This document shows positions 2,049 to 19,711 of a stretch of DNA of 21,524 nucleotides, piece by piece. The translations under genes and the position numbers were made by a program. Source of the DNA: a virus; IMG/VR virus record IMGVR_UViG_3300020187_000260, positions 1-21,524 of that record; one strand, 5' to 3'. The notes under the pieces are model-generated. The model worked only from the letters and a program-made list of their open reading frames with translations. It searched no databases and was not told where the DNA came from. Positions within the stretch are counted from its first letter, which is position 1, and every line of letters begins with the position of its first letter.

Positions 2049-5000
2049 TTAATAGTCCTGACCTGTCTTGAGTGTGTCCGATGAGTTCTCAGCGTTTGAC
2101 TCAAAATCATCTGAGATTTCTGAGTTTTTAGAGTCAAAGTTTATAGTTAAAGATCTCTTCATTGTTCTTACAGAACCAAGAGCAAGATCACTAACAAGAC
2201 TTTCTGTGCTCATAACGGTACAGTTTTCATCAGAATATTCTGCGGATACCCCATCATATGTAAATGCCTTTATTGATTTTCCACATATAGATGCTGTTAT
2301 ATCAACTTCTCCCATTTCTGTAGTGGAAATATAACAGTAGTGTTCAGAATTATCAGCAGAGTAGTTCATTTTTGACACCACAGCAGCCTCAGTAGTATCT
2401 CTTTCTATTTTTATTAAAATTCTATCAGAAAAATCAATAGAAAATGTATTGTCATATATATCTCTTGGAATTATTACAATCTTTACGCTTTTTTCTGCGG
2501 AAGATTCTATATAGTCACCTATACCTGAGGCATACTCTGTTGCTCCAGTAAAAGAGACTCCATCAGCACTTGCAATATCTTCTTCGGCTTGATTAACAAT
2601 ATCGCCTAATGCTGAGGATGGTATTCCCGAAGGATCCAAAATATTATCCAGCGGCTCTACCGATTTATCTTCAGATATTTTAAAAGAAGTTGAGAATGAG
2701 CTGACAGCCTGATTGCAGACACTGTCCAATATTCCCTCTACACAATCATTAGACTCTTTGTACTTCTCAAAAACTTCCGCAACATCAAACGGACTCGTCG
2801 ATATATTTCCACTTTGAAAATCAGACTTCACCTTATTTATTCCAGCATAAACGTAATCTCTTATGCCCTTCATGCAGTCATCCAAAGCATTTACAGTATC
2901 AAGCACTTCTTCTGCAGAAGGGGCCTCTAAGTTGTCTAAATTTTGAACCTGAGATTCGCATGACTCTATAAGCTCTGGACCTGCAGATCTGGTGTCTACG
3001 AAATATATGTCAATAAACTTAAAAACCTCTGTAAGGCTAATAGAATTTTGATACTCTTCCACATCTTCTTCAGATCCTCCCAAAAAGTTATACGCTCCCT
3101 TCTCAGGGTACAGCATTCTATCTTCAAGATCCGACACGGATATGCTTAGAGATTCTTTATTTATTATGAATTCAGCATACCCCTCGCTGGGTGCCTCTTT
3201 TCTTCCATGAGTACTGTTCGAGAAAGCGATCTCCTCTTCTATAAGCACAGAAGATACTACTTCATAATTAGCCTGAGCGTCTAATACGTCTTGACCCTCT
3301 TTGGTTATTGATACTTCCTCTTCTTTTTCAAAAGTTTTCTTTGCGGCATGAGTATCGCTAATTATTTTTGCAAAAATACCCTTTATCTTGCCGTTATCAT
3401 CAAACTTCATTCCATTTTCCTCGATAACGTAAACATCGCCTTCGTCATCTACAATCATGAATGATGGAATATTAGAATAGGTAATTATCTCTGACCCAAA
3501 GCCATACTTTAAAGGTGATGGGTGCATACCTTCCTGCTTTCCTCCCGAAAGAGTAATTGCATCAGAGCCAAACGCAGAAAACAAATCCTTACTACTTGAA
3601 TTTCCAACCAGAACTTCTTCTCCGCTGATATTTAAAAGAGAGAGCGAGTCATCTATATTGTCACTTTCAGATATGTTTTTAGTCTTGTGGAATGAAAATA
3701 ACCCAAAAGCTTTTTCGTCCGTAATTCCCTTAGGATTAATATCTTCTTTCGGCTGACCAAGAAGGTTTAAGTTATTTCCGAATGATATATAAACTCTAGC
3801 AGGGTCTTTTTTTAAGTCTCTTATGTTGTCAAGATTTAAAACAACGGATGCTTTTATTATTTTTGTGGCAGATATTTTAAATGTTCCTTCGAATTCAGAA
3901 TTCTTAACCCTATAAGAGAAATTGTCAACATTATCTAAGATGTAGTCTTTTGAGGTTTCTGATATTTTCTTTCCATTCGAGTATTCTGGTTTCATGATAA
4001 CCTTATAATCTGAAGTATTCCACTGGTCTTCACAATCAGAACCCTTATACTTGATATCTCCTCCCGAGTTCCTAAACTCACCCATCTCTTCTGAATTCTG
4101 AAAAGACGGAGTGTTTCCACACTTTCCAGGAGGCTCGGTTGTGTATGTTTGAGCAACCATGAGAAGGTTTCCTACCGTCTCTGCCTTTTCAGCAATAACG
4201 GCGCTTGCAGCTATATTATCAACACAAAAGATGTTTTCGACAGAATCTAAATTCCCCAAGTTACACGGCAGGTTAAAAACCAAATCTAAAAGTCTTCTGA
4301 AAATTGCAATAATATCTTCTATGGGCCTTAAAACGTCAATTTCTGCCTCAAAACTTGCAATGTATTTTTCAACAGTTTTTTCGAGTTGATAAAGAGACTG
4401 CACATCTCTTTTTTCCATTACGATGACAGCTCTATCTACAAGCTCTTTTAGCCCGAAAGCATAATAAGCTATTTTGTCGAAAACACACTTTAACAACGCC
4501 AATATGTGTATGACCATTTTAATCATCATAACGGGAATCGCAAACTGAGGAAGTAAAGATATTAGATCCCACAAACATTCAAATAGTCTGACCAAGGCTC
4601 TAAAATACTTTCTAGGGTTTGTTACAGAGCATATTACATCAATTATACAAAATATAATCTTTATTACACTAAGAACCTTTTCGAAGCCTTTCAGTTCTAT
4701 CTTAAGTTCTGCAGTCAAGTAAAAGCTAAAATCGCAAACACTCTGTAGGTGAGCCAGCTTCTCTGTAGGAATATTCAAATCTATATTTATAAAACTTAAA
4801 GAGGGAGGGTTATCAAATATTCCAAACCCACCTCTCAATCTTGGAGGCTTGTCGCAAGGATCTTCGATATCTGGAGAGTCTGGAGTTTCGGCAATGCTTT
4901 TGTCAGGCCTTACTACCGATATACTTGACTCGCATGGCAGACCTAAGTCTGAAACCTTATCAATATACGCTTGCGTATTATTAGATAACGCGACCTGAGA

Positions 5001-5219
5001 CGTATTTTGGCTTAAGCTAGAAGTTCCTACCAGAACATCATTTATTGCAAGCTTTAGATCTCCAGAACCTGGTGATGTTTCTACCGTCCTAACATCGGCA
5101 GGAGATATAGAAGAAAAGTCTTCCTTACCGTTTACTTTTATTAATTGTGGATTTTCAGAAAGAGTATTCGAGTTTACTTTTATAGAAAAAAACATCTTTG
5201 TCAGTCTAGATCCGTCCAT
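2049..5219 (-). CDS. Hypothetical large baseplate-region protein (1056 aa from first ATG) with hydrophobic helices
   Basis: No recognised family. The N-terminal part has a Pro/Cys-rich stretch (PCESS, DPCDKPPRLRGGFGIFDNPP, residues about 100-145). A strongly hydrophobic helical segment follows at about 175-265, with IIFCIIDVICSV, LFECLWDLISLLPQF and VIHILALLKCVF. The middle is polar and beta-rich, and a Cys-punctuated acidic helical region follows at about 755-870 (ESCESQ, DDCMKG, NDCVEG, SVCNQ). The C-terminal 180 residues look beta-rich (HYCYISTTEMGEVDITASIC). Nineteen or so cysteines is high for a tail protein. The first ATG (5217-5219) has no Shine-Dalgarno, unlike neighbouring genes, and the same frame stays open without an ATG, GTG or TTG back to 5450. 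The true N-terminus is therefore probably further upstream or supplied by the 495-codon gene. Confidence 0.82.
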   Translation of the reverse strand: MDGSRLTKMFFSIKVNSNTLSENPQLIKVNGKEDFSSISPADVRTVETSPGSGDLKLAINDVLVGTSSLSQNTSQVALSNNTQAYIDKVSDLGLPCESSISVVRPDKSIAETPDSPDIEDPCDKPPRLRGGFGIFDNPPSLSFINIDLNIPTEKLAHLQSVCDFSFYLTAELKIELKGFEKVLSVIKIIFCIIDVICSVTNPRKYFRALVRLFECLWDLISLLPQFAIPVMMIKMVIHILALLKCVFDKIAYYAFGLKELVDRAVIVMEKRDVQSLYQLEKTVEKYIASFEAEIDVLRPIEDIIAIFRRLLDLVFNLPCNLGNLDSVENIFCVDNIAASAVIAEKAETVGNLLMVAQTYTTEPPGKCGNTPSFQNSEEMGEFRNSGGDIKYKGSDCEDQWNTSDYKVIMKPEYSNGKKISETSKDYILDNVDNFSYRVKNSEFEGTFKISATKIIKASVVLNLDNIRDLKKDPARVYISFGNNLNLLGQPKEDINPKGITDEKAFGLFSFHKTKNISESDNIDDSLSLLNISGEEVLVGNSSSKDLFSAFGSDAITLSGGKQEGMHPSPLKYGFGSEIITYSNIPSFMIVDDEGDVYVIEENGMKFDDNGKIKGIFAKIISDTHAAKKTFEKEEEVSITKEGQDVLDAQANYEVVSSVLIEEEIAFSNSTHGRKEAPSEGYAEFIINKESLSISVSDLEDRMLYPEKGAYNFLGGSEEDVEEYQNSISLTEVFKFIDIYFVDTRSAGPELIESCESQVQNLDNLEAPSAEEVLDTVNALDDCMKGIRDYVYAGINKVKSDFQSGNISTSPFDVAEVFEKYKESNDCVEGILDSVCNQAVSSFSTSFKISEDKSVEPLDNILDPSGIPSSALGDIVNQAEEDIASADGVSFTGATEYASGIGDYIESSAEKSVKIVIIPRDIYDNTFSIDFSDRILIKIERDTTEAAVVSKMNYSADNSEHYCYISTTEMGEVDITASICGKSIKAFTYDGVSAEYSDENCTVMSTESLVSDLALGSVRTMKRSLTINFDSKNSEISDDFESNAENSSDTLKTGQDY

Positions 5220-5450
5220 TCTGGATATCGTCTGATAGCTCTCTGCAGATTTACCACCCCTAATGAAAGCTCTAATAGACCCACTACCCTTTGCCGAAAT
5301 AACCCTAGAAACAAAGTTTGATTTCTTTAAAGATAAAACCTCTCCCGTATCATCAAAAAATGAAATTATCCTAGACAGGGGTGTTTTCTTTGATACTCCA
5401 GGCTCTTCACACGGATCTTCCTTAAAATCTCTTTCATCTTTAGAATTTTT
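5220..5450 (-). other. Open in-frame extension upstream of the 1056-codon gene
   Basis: Read in the frame of the downstream gene, these 77 codons contain no stop; the first upstream stop is TAA at 5451-5453. The translation looks like real protein: KNSKDERDFKEDPCEEPGV, then TPLSRIISFFDDTGEVL, then NFVSRVISAKGSGSIRAFI. Codon use matches the neighbours. There is no ATG, GTG or TTG in it. It overlaps the last 28 codons of the 495-codon gene, whose tail there (KMKEILRKIRVKSLEYQRKH) is unlike the acidic Pro/Thr-rich sequence just before it and looks like an out-of-frame reading. I infer that this is translated sequence reached by a frame change or by a non-canonical start. Confidence 0.6.
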
Positions 5451-6853
5451 TTAATCTGTAATGATGCAATCAGATCGTCCAAGCTTGTTGGCAGAGTTGT
5501 AATATCTATCAAATTAGAAGATGACTCGTCTATGATGAGAGGAGTAACACCTTCCGATATAAGATCAGACTCATTCACCTCTGCTACAGAAACACCGTCC
5601 TTGGACACGAATACTACCGAAGTCTCTCCTGTGATTTCAGGAGTCATTGGATCAGTATCCAGATCTGTTGCTTCTCCGAATATGCCAACCTCACCTACGG
5701 CGGTTACTTCTATTGCGGGCGTATCTATTCCTGTTTCGGGATCTTTTTCCCTATCATCATTGCTTGTAAAATCTATAACAAGCCCTTCGTCGGGGGTTTT
5801 TGGGGGAGACGTGGCATCTTCGGGAGTTACAATAATGGCCCTAGATCTATACTCATCTGACGTCGCAATCCTTGTCTTATTCTCAATTACAATTCTTGGG
5901 GAATAAACTCCATTGACCGCATATTTCTTTTTTATATTTACAATATACGCAATCAATTCTCCATCATCGCTAACAATTCTTCTTTTTACAGAGTGAGCTT
6001 TATCATTTATATATAGCTTGTAATTTGATTTTGGTATTTCGTCGTTGTAAAAAGAAAATATTACAACTTGGTTTGTATTTCCAGACTTAAGTCTGAAGTT
6101 TCTATACTCAGAAGAAAGATCTCCGTAGTCTACGCCTCCAAACTCTTTTGCTATAATATCTTTTTCAGATTTTGTTAGGCCGTAAAATCTATTTGTATTT
6201 ATTTTGTTTTGCTGAAGCTCAACAACTCTCGTTATTATAGGTGTTGATCTAAATGGATTTTCTATAGTCTCGAAGAAGAAGTTTTCAACATATTTCATAT
6301 AATATATGTAATCTACAGTTTCTTTATTATTTTCGTTTTTTATAAATACAAACTTTGCCTTCTTCACCTCTACGAAGGGTAAAAGGTTATATCTTGCATT
6401 TCCAGCAGCATCCAAAGCTATGTTCTCAAAAACGTCTAAGCTTAATATTCCATCACTGTAGTACGCCTCACTCTGAGGGTCTGTGGTAGAAATTGTAACG
6501 TAGTAATCTTCAACAAGATACGACGCTCTAGAGGATATGTCAAGATTTTCCTCATCGTTAACCGTATCTGCCACGTCATCATCTGGGAAGTCATCTAGAT
6601 TGACAGAGATTTCAGCCCTTGAGGTATTAGATGTGGAAGCTCCCTTTACATATAAAGGCTCATCACTTTTAAAGCGATAAAGGCTTAGGCCTGTAGCTTC
6701 TTCAAACTCTTCTTGAGTCTGACCTTCGAGCTCTATAACCATAGAGATTGAAACATCTTTTATATCATTTTTAAGCTTATCGTTTATAATTTTAAATGAT
6801 ACTTTTGACCAGCCATCATAAGATATTTGTATATGACCTATTTTGCTACTCAT
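5366..6853 (-). CDS. Hypothetical beta-rich structural protein (495 aa), possibly the N-terminal half of the downstream gene
   Basis: I do not recognise it. The ATG at 6851-6853 has an AGGA-type Shine-Dalgarno about 8 nt upstream and overlaps the preceding gene by 8 nt. Residues 1-110 are beta-rich (GHIQISYDGWSKVSFKI). Residues about 255-330 form another beta-rich block (YKLYINDKAHSVKRRI to YSPRIVIENKTR) that could be an Ig/IPT-like fold. Residues about 340-440 are an acidic, Pro/Thr-rich linker (EDATSPPKTPDEG). The final 26 residues switch abruptly to a basic sequence ending KHPCLG. This follows a run of seven A, beyond which the -1 frame carries the better coding signal. The product may therefore continue into the next gene as one polypeptide of about 1600 residues. 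A baseplate role is inferred from position only. Confidence 0.82.
   Translation of the reverse strand: MSSKIGHIQISYDGWSKVSFKIINDKLKNDIKDVSISMVIELEGQTQEEFEEATGLSLYRFKSDEPLYVKGASTSNTSRAEISVNLDDFPDDDVADTVNDEENLDISSRASYLVEDYYVTISTTDPQSEAYYSDGILSLDVFENIALDAAGNARYNLLPFVEVKKAKFVFIKNENNKETVDYIYYMKYVENFFFETIENPFRSTPIITRVVELQQNKINTNRFYGLTKSEKDIIAKEFGGVDYGDLSSEYRNFRLKSGNTNQVVIFSFYNDEIPKSNYKLYINDKAHSVKRRIVSDDGELIAYIVNIKKKYAVNGVYSPRIVIENKTRIATSDEYRSRAIIVTPEDATSPPKTPDEGLVIDFTSNDDREKDPETGIDTPAIEVTAVGEVGIFGEATDLDTDPMTPEITGETSVVFVSKDGVSVAEVNESDLISEGVTPLIIDESSSNLIDITTLPTSLDDLIASLQIKKILKMKEILRKIRVKSLEYQRKHPCLG
5446..5452 (-). other. A7 homopolymer at the frame transition: slippage site or sequence indel
   Basis: On the minus strand the 495-codon gene reads ATT AAA AAA ATT across seven A. 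A -1 shift here yields AAA AAT TCT, which enters the open frame of the 1056-codon gene immediately after that frame's last stop (TAA, 5451-5453). The heptamer U AAA AAA does not meet the X XXY YYZ rule for two-tRNA slippage, because P-site re-pairing would have a first-position mismatch. One-tRNA slippage, polymerase slippage, or a missing A in the sequence are all possible. No strong hairpin follows closely. Confidence 0.45.
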
Positions 6854-9047
6854 TTGTAAATCCTGATTCTGACACTATATCACCTACGTTGATAGTACTC
6901 GTTTCTGTAACATTATTTCCCTCAGCACTGGAACTAATTTCCTTGCTAAGAATATTCGACTCGAGAGAATCATAATTCGATGGAGATTGGCATAATAATA
7001 AAAACTTTAAAATTCCAGAATATTCTGGGTCATCTATAACACCTGCAAAAAAATTATCAGAGGAGGATATGCTTATTCTTGTTCCCGAAAGACTTACCGA
7101 TTCATCATCCAGAGAATAATGATGATCTGTTCCATTCTTATCTGTTATGACTAATGTCTCTGCAAATTCTAAATCATTACCTTCTATAACGATAGAGAAA
7201 CCTCCAGAGATGTTGGCAATTAGCTCTAGTGTATCCATAATAGGATCTTTTATTATGAATCTGTACATATTGCTAAATTTATGGTAACGCAACCCATTAT
7301 TATCTTTTACGCTGGATTTTTTTAACAATGGCTGATATTGTCCATATTCATCTACCAGATAGGCCTTAGCGTACACACTCATTCTATCAGAGTACTCCTC
7401 TGGAAGTCTTAATTTGAATTGTTTTCTTGATATTGATATTTTTACATCATCAATATTTGATCCGAAATGTTCAAAAGGTATAAACACATATGTCAGTTTT
7501 TCACTTAGAGTGTCATACTCATCAATGTTTTCTACAAAACCAGAGGATATTGACTTTAAGGTGGAAGCGTTTGCAAGGCTTTTAGTTAGACTTCCAGATG
7601 GAGGGGGGGATAATCTTATAAAGCCATCGCTATCATACATCTGAAAGCCAGTTTCAAAAGAATAATTTCTTTTTGGGAATTTACGAAACTGCCTTGCTGC
7701 ATCTGCGACATCATCAATCTCTGTTATATCTGAAGTGAAAGATCTCGATACCTTTTGATCTTTGTGATCCTTTGCAGAAAGATATGGTGATCTTATAAGA
7801 GGGTATGGGTAATCCTCTAGTCCAGAAATATTACAAAGGCTTAAAACTATGTTGTACTTGTCAAAACTTCCGTTATGTATTTCCAGGTCTATATATTTAA
7901 AATTAAACTCATCGGCCGATGATTTAAATATATCAACAGGATCATCCCTTAGAGATATGTCTTCCGAGCTCTGATAATCCATCCTTCTCTTATCATAAAG
8001 ATATGGCATCACAATGCTATTATAATAATTGTTTGACATTTTAAATGAAAAAAGAAGCGGCCTTTTGCTGGAAAAATTAAAATCTCTGTCGTACTCAAAA
8101 GATCCCTCATCACTTATTATTGGAGTCTTTAAATAACCCTTAGAGCCTATGACGGTAAAGAACCCTAATCTTACCGTATCGTCCTCTTTAAAACTACCAA
8201 CCCTTTCGGATGGTATTATATAATTCATAATTTTTAAAAATAATAGTTCGGCGCCGAACTTTTCAATCATTGGAGCAACCCTAACATTATCGACCTCTTC
8301 GCCTAGAGCTATGTTTTTATATATGTCGTAGAAGTCTTTTGTTAGGACCTCGTCTGAAGTATAGTAGTTATAAGAACTTACATATTCTTCATCTTTTGAT
8401 AGAGCTGATATAATTTCACAAATTAATCCTATCATCTCATGAGGTATAAATTTAAACTTAAACATTTCATATATGGCTGTTATTAGCGTTCCCGAATCAA
8501 GTCCTTCGTTTATTTTTTCAACAGAGCTTATTTTTCCAAAAGAAGAATGCTCCACTCCGTACGAGCTTTCGATATAGTCATCTTCGTTTATGTTAAGGTA
8601 TGATATGCCAAACTTTGGAACCAAAGGTCTGAACCTTACATCGGAATATAGATCAATAACTTTATTGATAGAGGTTCTCAAGGTTTCTTGATAAAACTTC
8701 AAAACGCCCTCTTGCGTTTCTTTATAATCTTTCTTTATCTTAAAATTCTGCTTCATCTCAGATATGGAAAAATCCAAAGCGGACTTAAACTTATCCTTAG
8801 TGTCCCCAGATCCCTGATTATTTTTTAAAAACTTTTCCTCAAAGTCTGTTCCTATACCTATAGATATTAGATTTGGAGAGGTAAGCATAAGAATGTTATC
8901 ATTTTCAGGATAGAGTATGTTTAGCTCCATATCCTGAAATATATCGTCATTTGGATTGCAATTAAACTTTCTAGATACTGTCTGAGAAGGCATACTCGCA
9001 TTCTTGATCATATTTTTGCTTGCCCCGTGAGGACTTTTATATGGCAT
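6846..9047 (-). CDS. Hypothetical large structural protein (733 aa), probable baseplate component
   Basis: I do not recognise a family. The ATG at 9045-9047 follows GGAG with 7 nt spacing and lies 19 nt after the spike gene's stop. Residues about 75-125 are a charged helical segment (MKQNFKIKKDYKETQEGV). Residues about 180-215 are hydrophobic helical (AIYEMFKFKFIPHEMIGLI). The middle contains beta-rich blocks, including KRPLLFSFKMSNNYY and FKYIDLEIHNGSFDKYN. Near residues 600-690, IANISGGFSIVIEGNDLEF followed by a short turn-and-strand series resembles an Ig/IPT-like domain. The last 35 residues are a Ser-rich acidic tail ending SESGFTNE. No signal peptide, membrane helix or enzyme motif was seen. 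Its location right after hub and spike suggests a baseplate part around the hub or a peripheral protein; this is context-based inference. Confidence 0.88.
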   Translation of the reverse strand: MPYKSPHGASKNMIKNASMPSQTVSRKFNCNPNDDIFQDMELNILYPENDNILMLTSPNLISIGIGTDFEEKFLKNNQGSGDTKDKFKSALDFSISEMKQNFKIKKDYKETQEGVLKFYQETLRTSINKVIDLYSDVRFRPLVPKFGISYLNINEDDYIESSYGVEHSSFGKISSVEKINEGLDSGTLITAIYEMFKFKFIPHEMIGLICEIISALSKDEEYVSSYNYYTSDEVLTKDFYDIYKNIALGEEVDNVRVAPMIEKFGAELLFLKIMNYIIPSERVGSFKEDDTVRLGFFTVIGSKGYLKTPIISDEGSFEYDRDFNFSSKRPLLFSFKMSNNYYNSIVMPYLYDKRRMDYQSSEDISLRDDPVDIFKSSADEFNFKYIDLEIHNGSFDKYNIVLSLCNISGLEDYPYPLIRSPYLSAKDHKDQKVSRSFTSDITEIDDVADAARQFRKFPKRNYSFETGFQMYDSDGFIRLSPPPSGSLTKSLANASTLKSISSGFVENIDEYDTLSEKLTYVFIPFEHFGSNIDDVKISISRKQFKLRLPEEYSDRMSVYAKAYLVDEYGQYQPLLKKSSVKDNNGLRYHKFSNMYRFIIKDPIMDTLELIANISGGFSIVIEGNDLEFAETLVITDKNGTDHHYSLDDESVSLSGTRISISSSDNFFAGVIDDPEYSGILKFLLLCQSPSNYDSLESNILSKEISSSAEGNNVTETSTINVGDIVSESGFTNE

Positions 9048-17130: not shown

Positions 17131-18897
17131 TTATCCAGGCGGATTGTCTGGTGTTTCGAACGCAGCGACAACTTCTAATATTGATTTCCATATAGATGAA
17201 GACTCCTCATTCATTGCGATTTTAACATCAACAAGCTGACTAGCGCGGTTAGTTGCTCCAGAACCAGGCGATTTATTTCCCATCTTTGATACATCGATAG
17301 ACATATCCCTTAGAGTATCAGCCATTCCCAGTGATGCATCCAAATCAACAGACTCCCTTGCTGTGTCCATTGCAGACGACATATCCATAATCTGTCCTCT
17401 AGTCATCCCTCCAGTTGCAATCGAAATAGACTTTAATGTTTCAAGCATCCCATTATACGTCGCGCTAGCAACGGTATTCTGCGCGACCATTTTTGACAAA
17501 TGAGCATTTGTTTTTTGAGACTCGTCAAGAGTATTTTCCTTCTGATCTCTCGTAGAATCAACAAGCTCTTCGAGTCTAGCTTTAGTCTCCTCTTTTCCTA
17601 GTACATTTATATTGTCAAGATTTTTTAGCAACTCAAGAGTTCTGTCTGCCTTTGCCACATCGGATATGCCAAACTGCTTTAACAGGTCTTGCTGTATTGC
17701 AAACTGCTGTTGCTTATCTGGAGAATCTGCGGCTTCTTGAAGGGTAATGATTTCTCCCCCTCCAAAATTTCTCAGAGTATCTCTCATAGCCTCAGCTACC
17801 TGCATACCTATATCTGCCTGACCAGAGCCAACCTTCTCCGATTCTAGCATTTTAGCTCTAAGTCCTATCGATCCTCCGAGGACTCCACTTCCAGCCCCAA
17901 AGTCTAATCCACCTTGCTGGAAAACAAAGAACGCCTTTCCGTAATCTTCAGCCATCTTCATGACAGATGAGGACATTGTGGTTGCGAGGCCTGAAGCATT
18001 TGATATACCTAGCCCAACCTTTTCAAGGGTCTCAACAAACCCTTCCAGAAACGGCTTTGCAAAGTCAGTAGACATACCAAACAATCTAAAGCCATTCGAT
18101 GCACTGCTCAGTGCTGAGGAGACAGATGACATTGTCAATCCCGTTTTCGAAGCAATGTCGTAGAAAGTCCCAATTTGGGTAACCGAGTCATCGGCGCTCA
18201 TGCCTAAGTCATAAATGCTTGATTTTACATCTCCAAAAACTTCTCGAAGACTCTTCCCAGTAGCGTCAGACATTAGCATTGATGCGTGAACCAGATTAAA
18301 GCTTCCCGATAATGTCGTCACAGAATCATCAAGTTTATCCGCCTCTATTCCCATTCCCATCATGGTTGTTGCGGCTTCCTTCATAGATCCAAAAGAAAAA
18401 TAATCTTCTGCATTATCCATAGATGCTGATAAGTCAGATATGCCATCTCTAAGAATTTTTGAGTCTTCAAAGGTTACTCCGAAAGATCTTCCGAGAACCG
18501 CAACTTCTGCAGTATATCTTCTCAAGCCCCTAGTAGAGTCATCAAGCGAGTCTGTTGCTGCTGTTGTATCTTCAACAACCTTCATCATGCTCTTCATCGA
18601 CTCTAGTGCTACTCCAGAAATCAAATTAGAACCTATTATAGGATTTGAAGCAATTGCCTCAAGTCCTTTTAGAGCTTTTGACATTCCAGCAATCGTATTA
18701 TTTGCATTCATTGCTGATTGATATATGTCGTCAAAAACCTTAGTTTCTTGCCCAAGAGATATTAACACCCTAGACATACCCTCAACCTTACTCGTCATAG
18801 CGGATAAAGTTTTTGAGTACGCCTGTACCGCGTCTGTCCCTTTGTCAAACTCAGAGTTCGTTTTAAATAGACTCTCTAATAATTCCTCTAACTTCAT
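17131..18897 (-). CDS. Tail tape measure protein (short)
   Basis: It directly follows the frameshifted tail chaperone gene, overlapping it as TAATG, with an AAGGAG Shine-Dalgarno 5 nt upstream. The 588 residues are almost entirely helical and rich in Ser, Met, Ala and Gly. Residues about 120-275 (YTAEVAVLGRSFGVTFEDSK, then VFGDVKSSIYDLGMSADDS and LTMSSVSSALSSASNGF) resemble the core of TP901-type tape measure proteins, with its recurrent 'LG.s..d......A...G.s...v...l' helical pattern. The Met-rich segment LATTMSSSVMKMAED lies at about 305-320. No C-terminal peptidoglycan hydrolase or zinc-peptidase motif is visible. Taking the usual rule of about 1.5 angstrom per residue, 588 residues would predict a tail near 85-90 nm, short beside the very large baseplate genes. 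Position and composition make the call fairly secure; sequence identity to named proteins was not testable. Confidence 0.8.
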   Translation of the reverse strand: MKLEELLESLFKTNSEFDKGTDAVQAYSKTLSAMTSKVEGMSRVLISLGQETKVFDDIYQSAMNANNTIAGMSKALKGLEAIASNPIIGSNLISGVALESMKSMMKVVEDTTAATDSLDDSTRGLRRYTAEVAVLGRSFGVTFEDSKILRDGISDLSASMDNAEDYFSFGSMKEAATTMMGMGIEADKLDDSVTTLSGSFNLVHASMLMSDATGKSLREVFGDVKSSIYDLGMSADDSVTQIGTFYDIASKTGLTMSSVSSALSSASNGFRLFGMSTDFAKPFLEGFVETLEKVGLGISNASGLATTMSSSVMKMAEDYGKAFFVFQQGGLDFGAGSGVLGGSIGLRAKMLESEKVGSGQADIGMQVAEAMRDTLRNFGGGEIITLQEAADSPDKQQQFAIQQDLLKQFGISDVAKADRTLELLKNLDNINVLGKEETKARLEELVDSTRDQKENTLDESQKTNAHLSKMVAQNTVASATYNGMLETLKSISIATGGMTRGQIMDMSSAMDTARESVDLDASLGMADTLRDMSIDVSKMGNKSPGSGATNRASQLVDVKIAMNEESSSIWKSILEVVAAFETPDNPPG

Positions 18898-19711
18898 TAA
18901 TACTCCTTAGTAACGTCAAAAAGAGAACTTTCGAAGTTTACATCTTCTTTTAACTCCTTATTATTATTAGTTTGTTCAAAACCAACACCTTTTTTTGCGT
19001 CTTTAAAGTCTTTCATAAATTCTGAATTTTTGTCTAACATGTCTTTTGCGAGTTCATGAGGGTCTACAGAACTGATCTTGGAGTTCTCACCTTCTCGGGA
19101 GTCTTTGATTCTTCTAACCGCTTCAGGATTTACAAATGACATCATATATTCCGCAATATCTCTTACGGTCTCTATAAGTTCTTTTTCATCCGTCCTTATG
19201 TTGTTAGAATACCATAGCATTTGAACGGCAGACATCTCTAAGAATAGATCATCGCTAACATGGATACCTAGAGATTTGCAAATTTTCCAACGGAGCCTGC
19301 TATAGGGCTCCTCTACGAGTTTTTTAGGTTCTCTGTTGCCTCGCCAGTATCTACATTAGAATTTATAGACTCAAAGGCCTCATATAACTTGTTTACTATG
19401 GAGAATTGCATTTTTGATATCAATGCAATCTTTTTATCAAAGGTCGTTTCCCCTTCCTCAACTCCTCCAATAACGGTCTCGAGATCGAACTCATTTATTT
19501 TCAATATTGAGCTTGCGACCGCAATACCTTTTGACTGAGCGAGTCTTTCCGCCTCAGACAATCCAAATATTTTTTCCAAAAGAGTTCTGTTTTGTTTTTC
19601 AGTTAGAGAGCTCATAGTGAACTTAACCTCTCCAATCTCAACAACCCTTTCATTTTTACCCATGAAGATTAATTTTTCCAATAAATCTTTTCCAACTGAA
19701 CCTTTTTCCAT
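18897..19711 (-). CDS. Tail assembly chaperone, long frameshift product (G-T-like fusion, about 271 aa)
   Basis: This is the product expected when ribosomes shift -1 at 19319-19325: 131 codons of the upstream frame, then 140 codons of the -1 frame to the TAA at 18897-18899. Right after the slip the -1 frame reads LVEEPYSRLRWKICKSLGIH and then VSDDLFLEMSAVQMLWY, open and protein-like, joining the downstream helical charged domain. The internal ATG at 19233-19235 has no good Shine-Dalgarno, so the downstream part is probably made only as the fusion. In lambda (G/GT) and many other long-tailed phages, the short and long chaperone forms coat the tape measure protein during tail assembly. The position just before the tape measure gene is the conserved one. 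The end of this gene overlaps the tape measure start by one base. Confidence 0.85.
19292..19325 (-). other. -1 programmed ribosomal frameshift signal: A AAA AAC plus hairpin
   Basis: On the minus strand the zero frame reads CTA AAA AAC TCG TAG. The heptamer A AAA AAC (19319-19325) is an in-register X XXY YYZ slippery site. A 7-nt spacer (19312-19318) containing the zero-frame stop is followed by a perfect 6-bp hairpin, GGAGCC / GGCTCC (19306-19311 with 19292-19297), with an 8-nt loop. Spacer length and stem position are typical of stimulatory structures. The hairpin lacks a following U tract, so it is not a terminator. Confidence 0.9.
19313..19711 (-). CDS. Tail assembly chaperone, short form (G-like, 132 aa)
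   Basis: The ATG at 19709-19711 sits 4 nt after GGAGG, one of the strongest ribosome binding sites here. The protein starts MEKGSVGKDLLEKLIFMGK, has a small beta region (VVEIGEVKFTMSSLTEKQN) and then helices to its end at LKNS. It stops two codons after the A AAA AAC slip site, so it is the default product when no frameshift occurs. A 'beta hairpin then S-L-T/S-x-x-x' opening is common in tail chaperones, where the first segment describes a target epitope-like loop. Function as the tape measure chaperone is inferred from gene order and from the frameshift signal rather than from detailed sequence similarity. Confidence 0.85.
   Translation of the reverse strand: MEKGSVGKDLLEKLIFMGKNERVVEIGEVKFTMSSLTEKQNRTLLEKIFGLSEAERLAQSKGIAVASSILKINEFDLETVIGGVEEGETTFDKKIALISKMQFSIVNKLYEAFESINSNVDTGEATENLKNS

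Follow-up and report, generated by a model that had tools for sequence, protein, structure and literature searches.

A Giant Tail-Module Gene of a Contractile-Tailed Phage, Probably Split in Its Record by One Base Lost From an A7 Run

Introduction

Two adjacent open reading frames (ORFs) of 495 and 1056 codons, p495 and p1056, raise the question of whether they are separate genes, a single gene that is read through a recoding site, or a single gene whose frame has been broken by the loss of a base. They belong to the tail module of a large phage with a contractile tail, a module that is covered by a 21.5-kb IMG/VR virus record. This whole stretch of 21,524 nucleotides is referred to as the window. 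Its minus strand carries all major genes, and these follow each other in transcription order as listed below.

Minus strand, start: tail sheath fragment of 356 aa (cut); structural protein of 203 aa at the tail-tube position; 132 aa; 112 aa.
Minus strand, middle: 588 aa at the tape-measure position; 309 aa, weakly similar to tail tube initiators; 1622 aa; 746 aa.
Minus strand, end: 733 aa; 495 aa; 1056 aa; 631 aa.

The sheath fragment has shown a similarity of 23–28% to phage G, Tunturi_5 and others. Apart from the break between p495 and p1056, no gene in the window is broken, so that base errors are not frequent in this assembly, a point that counts against a lost base.

The Frame Switch at the A7 Run

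The features at the boundary are the following.

5446–5452, minus strand: A7 homopolymer (T7 on the plus strand), at which the coding frame passes from 0 to −1.
5366–6853, minus strand: p495, the 495-aa ORF, with AGGA 7 nt before its ATG; middle part of the relatives' giant tail protein by a weak match.
5366–5445, minus strand: out-of-frame tail of p495, ending at the stop 5366–5368.
5220–5447, minus strand: 76 open, coding-like codons of the −1 frame that lead into p1056.
2049–5219, minus strand: p1056, the 1056-aa ORF; matches the giant tail protein in its C-terminal part, with a conserved hydrophobic FCIIDVIC core.

Across the run the zero frame reads ATT AAA AAA ATT. The −1 frame has a TAA that shares bases with the beginning of the run, and from there it stays open until p1056 terminates. 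Taken together with the zero-frame stop at 5366–5368, this pattern confines a switch to the interval between the A run and that stop. Codon scores have been trained on the window's own genes, with in-frame and off-frame pieces as controls. By this measure the last 27 codons of p495 have reached −0.54 bits/codon, compared with an in-frame mean of +0.33 (sd 0.16, 26-codon pieces), and the 76 codons of the −1 frame before the ATG at 5219 have reached +0.31 bits/codon, where the in-frame mean is 0.33 and the best off-frame control 0.04. The optimum for the breakpoint falls at 5448–5451, within the A7 run, and none of 11,884 off-frame segments of 76 codons from the window's genes has been found free of stops. 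The earlier sequence-only reading, which had described the last 28 codons of p495 as an out-of-frame tail and the −1 frame as open and protein-like from the run into p1056, is thus borne out by both the codon scores and the stop-free control. The loss of one base would be expected to shift the coding frame at a homopolymer and to leave coding-like sequence beyond it, and both are seen here.

An independent start of p1056 has been looked for in the same interval. Upstream of 5219 no ATG, GTG or TTG has been found in the −1 frame, in agreement over 76 codons with what had been claimed for the stretch between the run and 5219. The first ATG, at 5219, had also been described as differing from its neighbors by the absence of a Shine-Dalgarno sequence, and this holds as well: the motif is absent at both 5219 and 5195, whereas it precedes all nine of the other complete genes (the second ORF of the chaperone pair excluded), compared with 11% of non-start ATGs. 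Starts without the motif amount to three of 12, namely 5219, the 112-aa ORF, which is a frameshift product, and the cut sheath fragment. Non-standard starts in the −1 frame have been considered too; a Shine-Dalgarno-like motif occurs only at the AAG codons 5390, 5327 and 5291 and at ATT 5276, none of them convincing.

The Giant Tail Gene in Related Phages

Relatives have been collected by means of a conserved segment of the 1622-aa protein, which yielded 80 loci of 39–64% identity, and by a search with the p1056 core, which added 27 loci, some on contigs already found. In 64 of these IMG/VR loci, which form 32 clusters at 95%, the p1056 core is found 1,207–1,714 open codons into one long ORF, with the exception of a split in the contigs L014/L099 that is described below. 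This ORF stands directly after the homologue of the 746-aa protein and spans 2,016–2,763 codons where complete. It is unbroken in 31 of the 32 clusters, and in the remaining one a single contig out of three near-identical ones is split, with at least one contig in every cluster showing one continuous ORF. One further part of the window belongs to the comparison.

6846–9047, minus strand: p733, the 733-aa ORF; matches the giant tail protein in its N-terminal part, and its end overlaps p495.

In profile comparisons by hhalign, p733 has been placed on columns 23–406 of the giant profile (E 3.5e-10), p495 weakly on columns ~846–1041, and the p1056 frame, read from the A7 run on, on columns 1491–2418 (probability 100, E ~4e-100). 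The three ORFs match the profile in order, and the relatives' protein therefore corresponds to p733 + p495 + p1056. The homologues are continuous across the site, as a one-base loss in the window would predict, with a junction too divergent for a position-by-position alignment at the residue level. Together with the codon usage, the unbroken gene in relatives upholds the proposal that p495 and p1056 share one coding frame with a switch at the A7 run. Relatives with two clearly separate genes, which the sequence-only reading had named as evidence against it, have been sought, and none has been encountered among the 32 closer clusters. In more distant loci (e.g., L053 and L072) the core forms its own gene of ~700 aa, which starts 64–104 codons before the core; this start is not equivalent to 5219, and no 495-type gene lies upstream.

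The window (2049–9047) and its relatives (e.g., L093:3462-10829 and L105:2982-11195) define a tail-module family of ~2,000–2,760 aa, whose hydrophobic core, KVIFCIIDVICALLNPVKLAFAIIRLF, is strongly conserved. For this giant family no significant match has been obtained in the PDB or among annotated phages, and matches in PHROGs have not been consistent. Searches with p495 and p1056 among annotated phages have given no match, nor have single-protein scans with the whole of p1056 and the whole of p495. The 76 residues before the ATG, to which even the nearest relatives are too distant to be aligned, have likewise matched nothing in profile searches, where shuffled residues in their place scored equally well, and AlphaFold has assigned a pLDDT of ~30–35 to the region before the hydrophobic core. 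When viral_contigs and genome_contigs were searched for the A7 region with variable spacing, no second copy of the genome turned up.

A One-Base Loss in a Relative and the Favored Reading

The split relative shows how such a break looks when close copies are at hand. L007, L008 and L014 are 99.8–99.9% identical over the module, and the giant ORF is intact in L007 and L008. A T5 run of these two contigs is a T4 run in L014/L099, near L014:16375, and this difference alone cuts the giant ORF in two. Accordingly, a loss of one base from a homopolymer within the giant gene already exists in a public assembly. The contigs L007 and L014, otherwise 99.8% identical, also differ in two short, dense clusters (L007:3623-3659 and L007:18711-18717), which are possibly recombination or hypervariable spots.

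The frame switch at the A7 run, the fused gene in relatives, the precedent in L014/L099 and the missing Shine-Dalgarno sequence at p1056 together favor the reading that a single base is missing from the A homopolymer, through a sequencing or assembly error or through a recent deletion, and we assign to it a probability of roughly 0.8. As to the origin of the loss, an error of sequencing or assembly in the metagenomic contig appears rather likely, whereas it appears somewhat unlikely that the sampled phage itself has recently undergone a deletion. The base would be missing from the sequence without being compensated at expression. The 495- and 1056-aa ORFs would then be one gene, interrupted in the record by the single lost base, and its uninterrupted product would be a ~1,600-residue part of a giant protein of the tail or baseplate region, which the relatives make in one piece with the 733-aa part. 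The giant protein may be placed in the baseplate region because its gene comes after those for the sheath and tube proteins, the chaperone, the tape measure and the tube initiator. Four causes had been left unranked in the sequence-only reading, namely recoding, slippage of the polymerase, a true mutation and a homopolymer sequencing error; the lost base, as error or recent deletion, has gained from the present data, and programmed recoding has lost ground.

Possible Recoding at the A7 Run

Ribosomal −1 slippage or slippage of an RNA polymerase on the A7 run would provide some full-length product of p495 and p1056 beside a short 495-aa form. The run sits at the exact switch point, and A runs are known slippage sites: a contractile-apparatus gene is rescued on an A11 run (PMC4256274), and for slippage of T7 RNA polymerase three A's are already enough (PMC6260861); a polymerase of its own may be conceivable in a large phage. 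The published limits are nevertheless above the run at hand, since A runs over 7 are cited for transcriptional recoding (PMC3711429) and slippage by E. coli RNA polymerase is undetectable below eight A's (PMC6260861). The A7 run thus falls short of the reported length for transcriptional slippage, from which a phage-encoded polymerase could differ.

As for the ribosome, the zero-frame phase T_AAA_AAA_A does not conform to the slippery heptamer X_XXY_YYZ. The run is out of phase, and a tandem slip on A_AAA_AAA/G/C is therefore unavailable, which leaves only a single-codon slip in the P-site. The fold z-scores downstream of the run (0.70, −0.37 and 0.13, for non-pseudoknot folds) indicate no more RNA structure than expected by chance, and upstream of it no Shine-Dalgarno-like stimulator is present in the sequence. 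The relatives, whose gene is in frame, have conserved neither the A7 site nor the −1 arrangement, and A7 or T7 runs occur without a shift 12 times elsewhere in the window's genes and 85 times in the relatives' representative giant genes. A real programmed site of the window looks quite different.

~19313–19325, minus strand: −1 site A_AAA_AAC of the tail assembly chaperone (ORFs 19313–19711 and 18897–19235), with heptamer, hairpin and conservation.

At this site the 132-aa ORF ends in CTA AAA AAC TCG TAG with A_AAA_AAC in phase, a GGAGCC/GGCTCC hairpin follows immediately 3' of the slippery sequence, and the −1 frame continues into the 112-aa ORF, which has no Shine-Dalgarno sequence. Those relatives that have been checked show an A-rich slippery stretch and a conserved −1 product at the same position. 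The tail assembly chaperone thus has a canonical site of programmed −1 frameshifting. Programmed recoding at the A7 run is not supported, and functional recoding there is held to be improbable. We regard as still more doubtful a lineage-specific form of it, perhaps with a phage-encoded RNA polymerase, in which 495-aa and 1,600-aa forms of the tail protein would be made in a fixed ratio and the relatives would make the full-length form only.

A Possible Real Fission of the Gene

In a real fission, p1056 would be a separate gene that starts at the ATG 5219 or at a non-standard codon, and the preceding 76 codons would be a relic. This reading draws on the neighboring boundary of p733 and p495.

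6846–6853, minus strand: ATGAGTAG, stop/start overlap of the 733- and 495-aa ORFs, with an AGGA Shine-Dalgarno sequence 7 nt upstream of the ATG.

Here the coding character extends up to the stop of the 733-aa ORF and resumes at the ATG of the 495-aa ORF, and the longest homopolymer does not exceed four. The boundary is probably a genuine, lineage-specific gene fission, which weakens the case for a joined p495 and p1056 without removing it: the lineage appears to have split its giant gene once, with overlap and Shine-Dalgarno sequence, and a second real split would not be absurd, which counts against the lost base. The ~700-aa gene formed by the C-terminal core in distant relatives points in the same direction. 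At p1056 itself, though, neither 5219 nor 5195 has a Shine-Dalgarno sequence, and the 76 codons still look translated, being stop-free and coding-like in score, in contrast to the last 27 codons of p495, which have an out-of-frame look. A real fission at this place is consequently judged quite unlikely. Least probable are base errors at both boundaries with a giant gene unbroken in the real genome: 32 of 32 related clusters do include one contig or more with the three parts in a single ORF, but the 733/495 boundary has an ATG, a Shine-Dalgarno sequence at 7 nt, a stop/start overlap, continuous coding character and no homopolymer longer than four.

Significance and Comparison With Known Systems

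With a lost base as the favored reading, the biological weight of the locus is small, as the break most likely stems from an erroneous base call or a deletion of recent date. The consequence is for annotation: the 495- and 1056-aa calls need a flag that assigns them to a single gene, and the break in L014/L099 shows that losses of one base from a homopolymer do divide the giant gene in publicly available viral assemblies. Should the A7 run be genuine and its effect be corrected during expression, the tail module would contain a second recoding site.

The programmed −1 frameshift of tail assembly chaperones (Xu, Hendrix and Duda 2004, cited in PMC3711429) shares with the A7 site the −1 direction, an A-rich sequence and the location in a tail module. 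The window's own site of this type is a separate one, with A_AAA_AAC, hairpin and conservation, unlike the A7 run, which has none of these. A closer resemblance in arrangement is offered by tssM of Citrobacter rodentium, where an interrupted gene has been shown by experiment to be rescued through transcriptional slippage on an A11 run (PMC4256274). Both genes belong to a contractile, phage-tail-like machine, and both are interrupted shortly after an A run and followed by a long downstream frame; there, the run is an A11 with experimentally shown activity, whereas here it is an unconserved A7. The singletons of the GeneTack study (PMC3711429) are like the present case in that a single record carries the break while its relatives are in frame, the switch coincides with a homopolymer, and a ribosome binding site is missing before the downstream ORF. 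For singleton frame breaks that are validated by protein similarity, the authors of that study expect sequencing errors and not genuine indels (PMC3711429).
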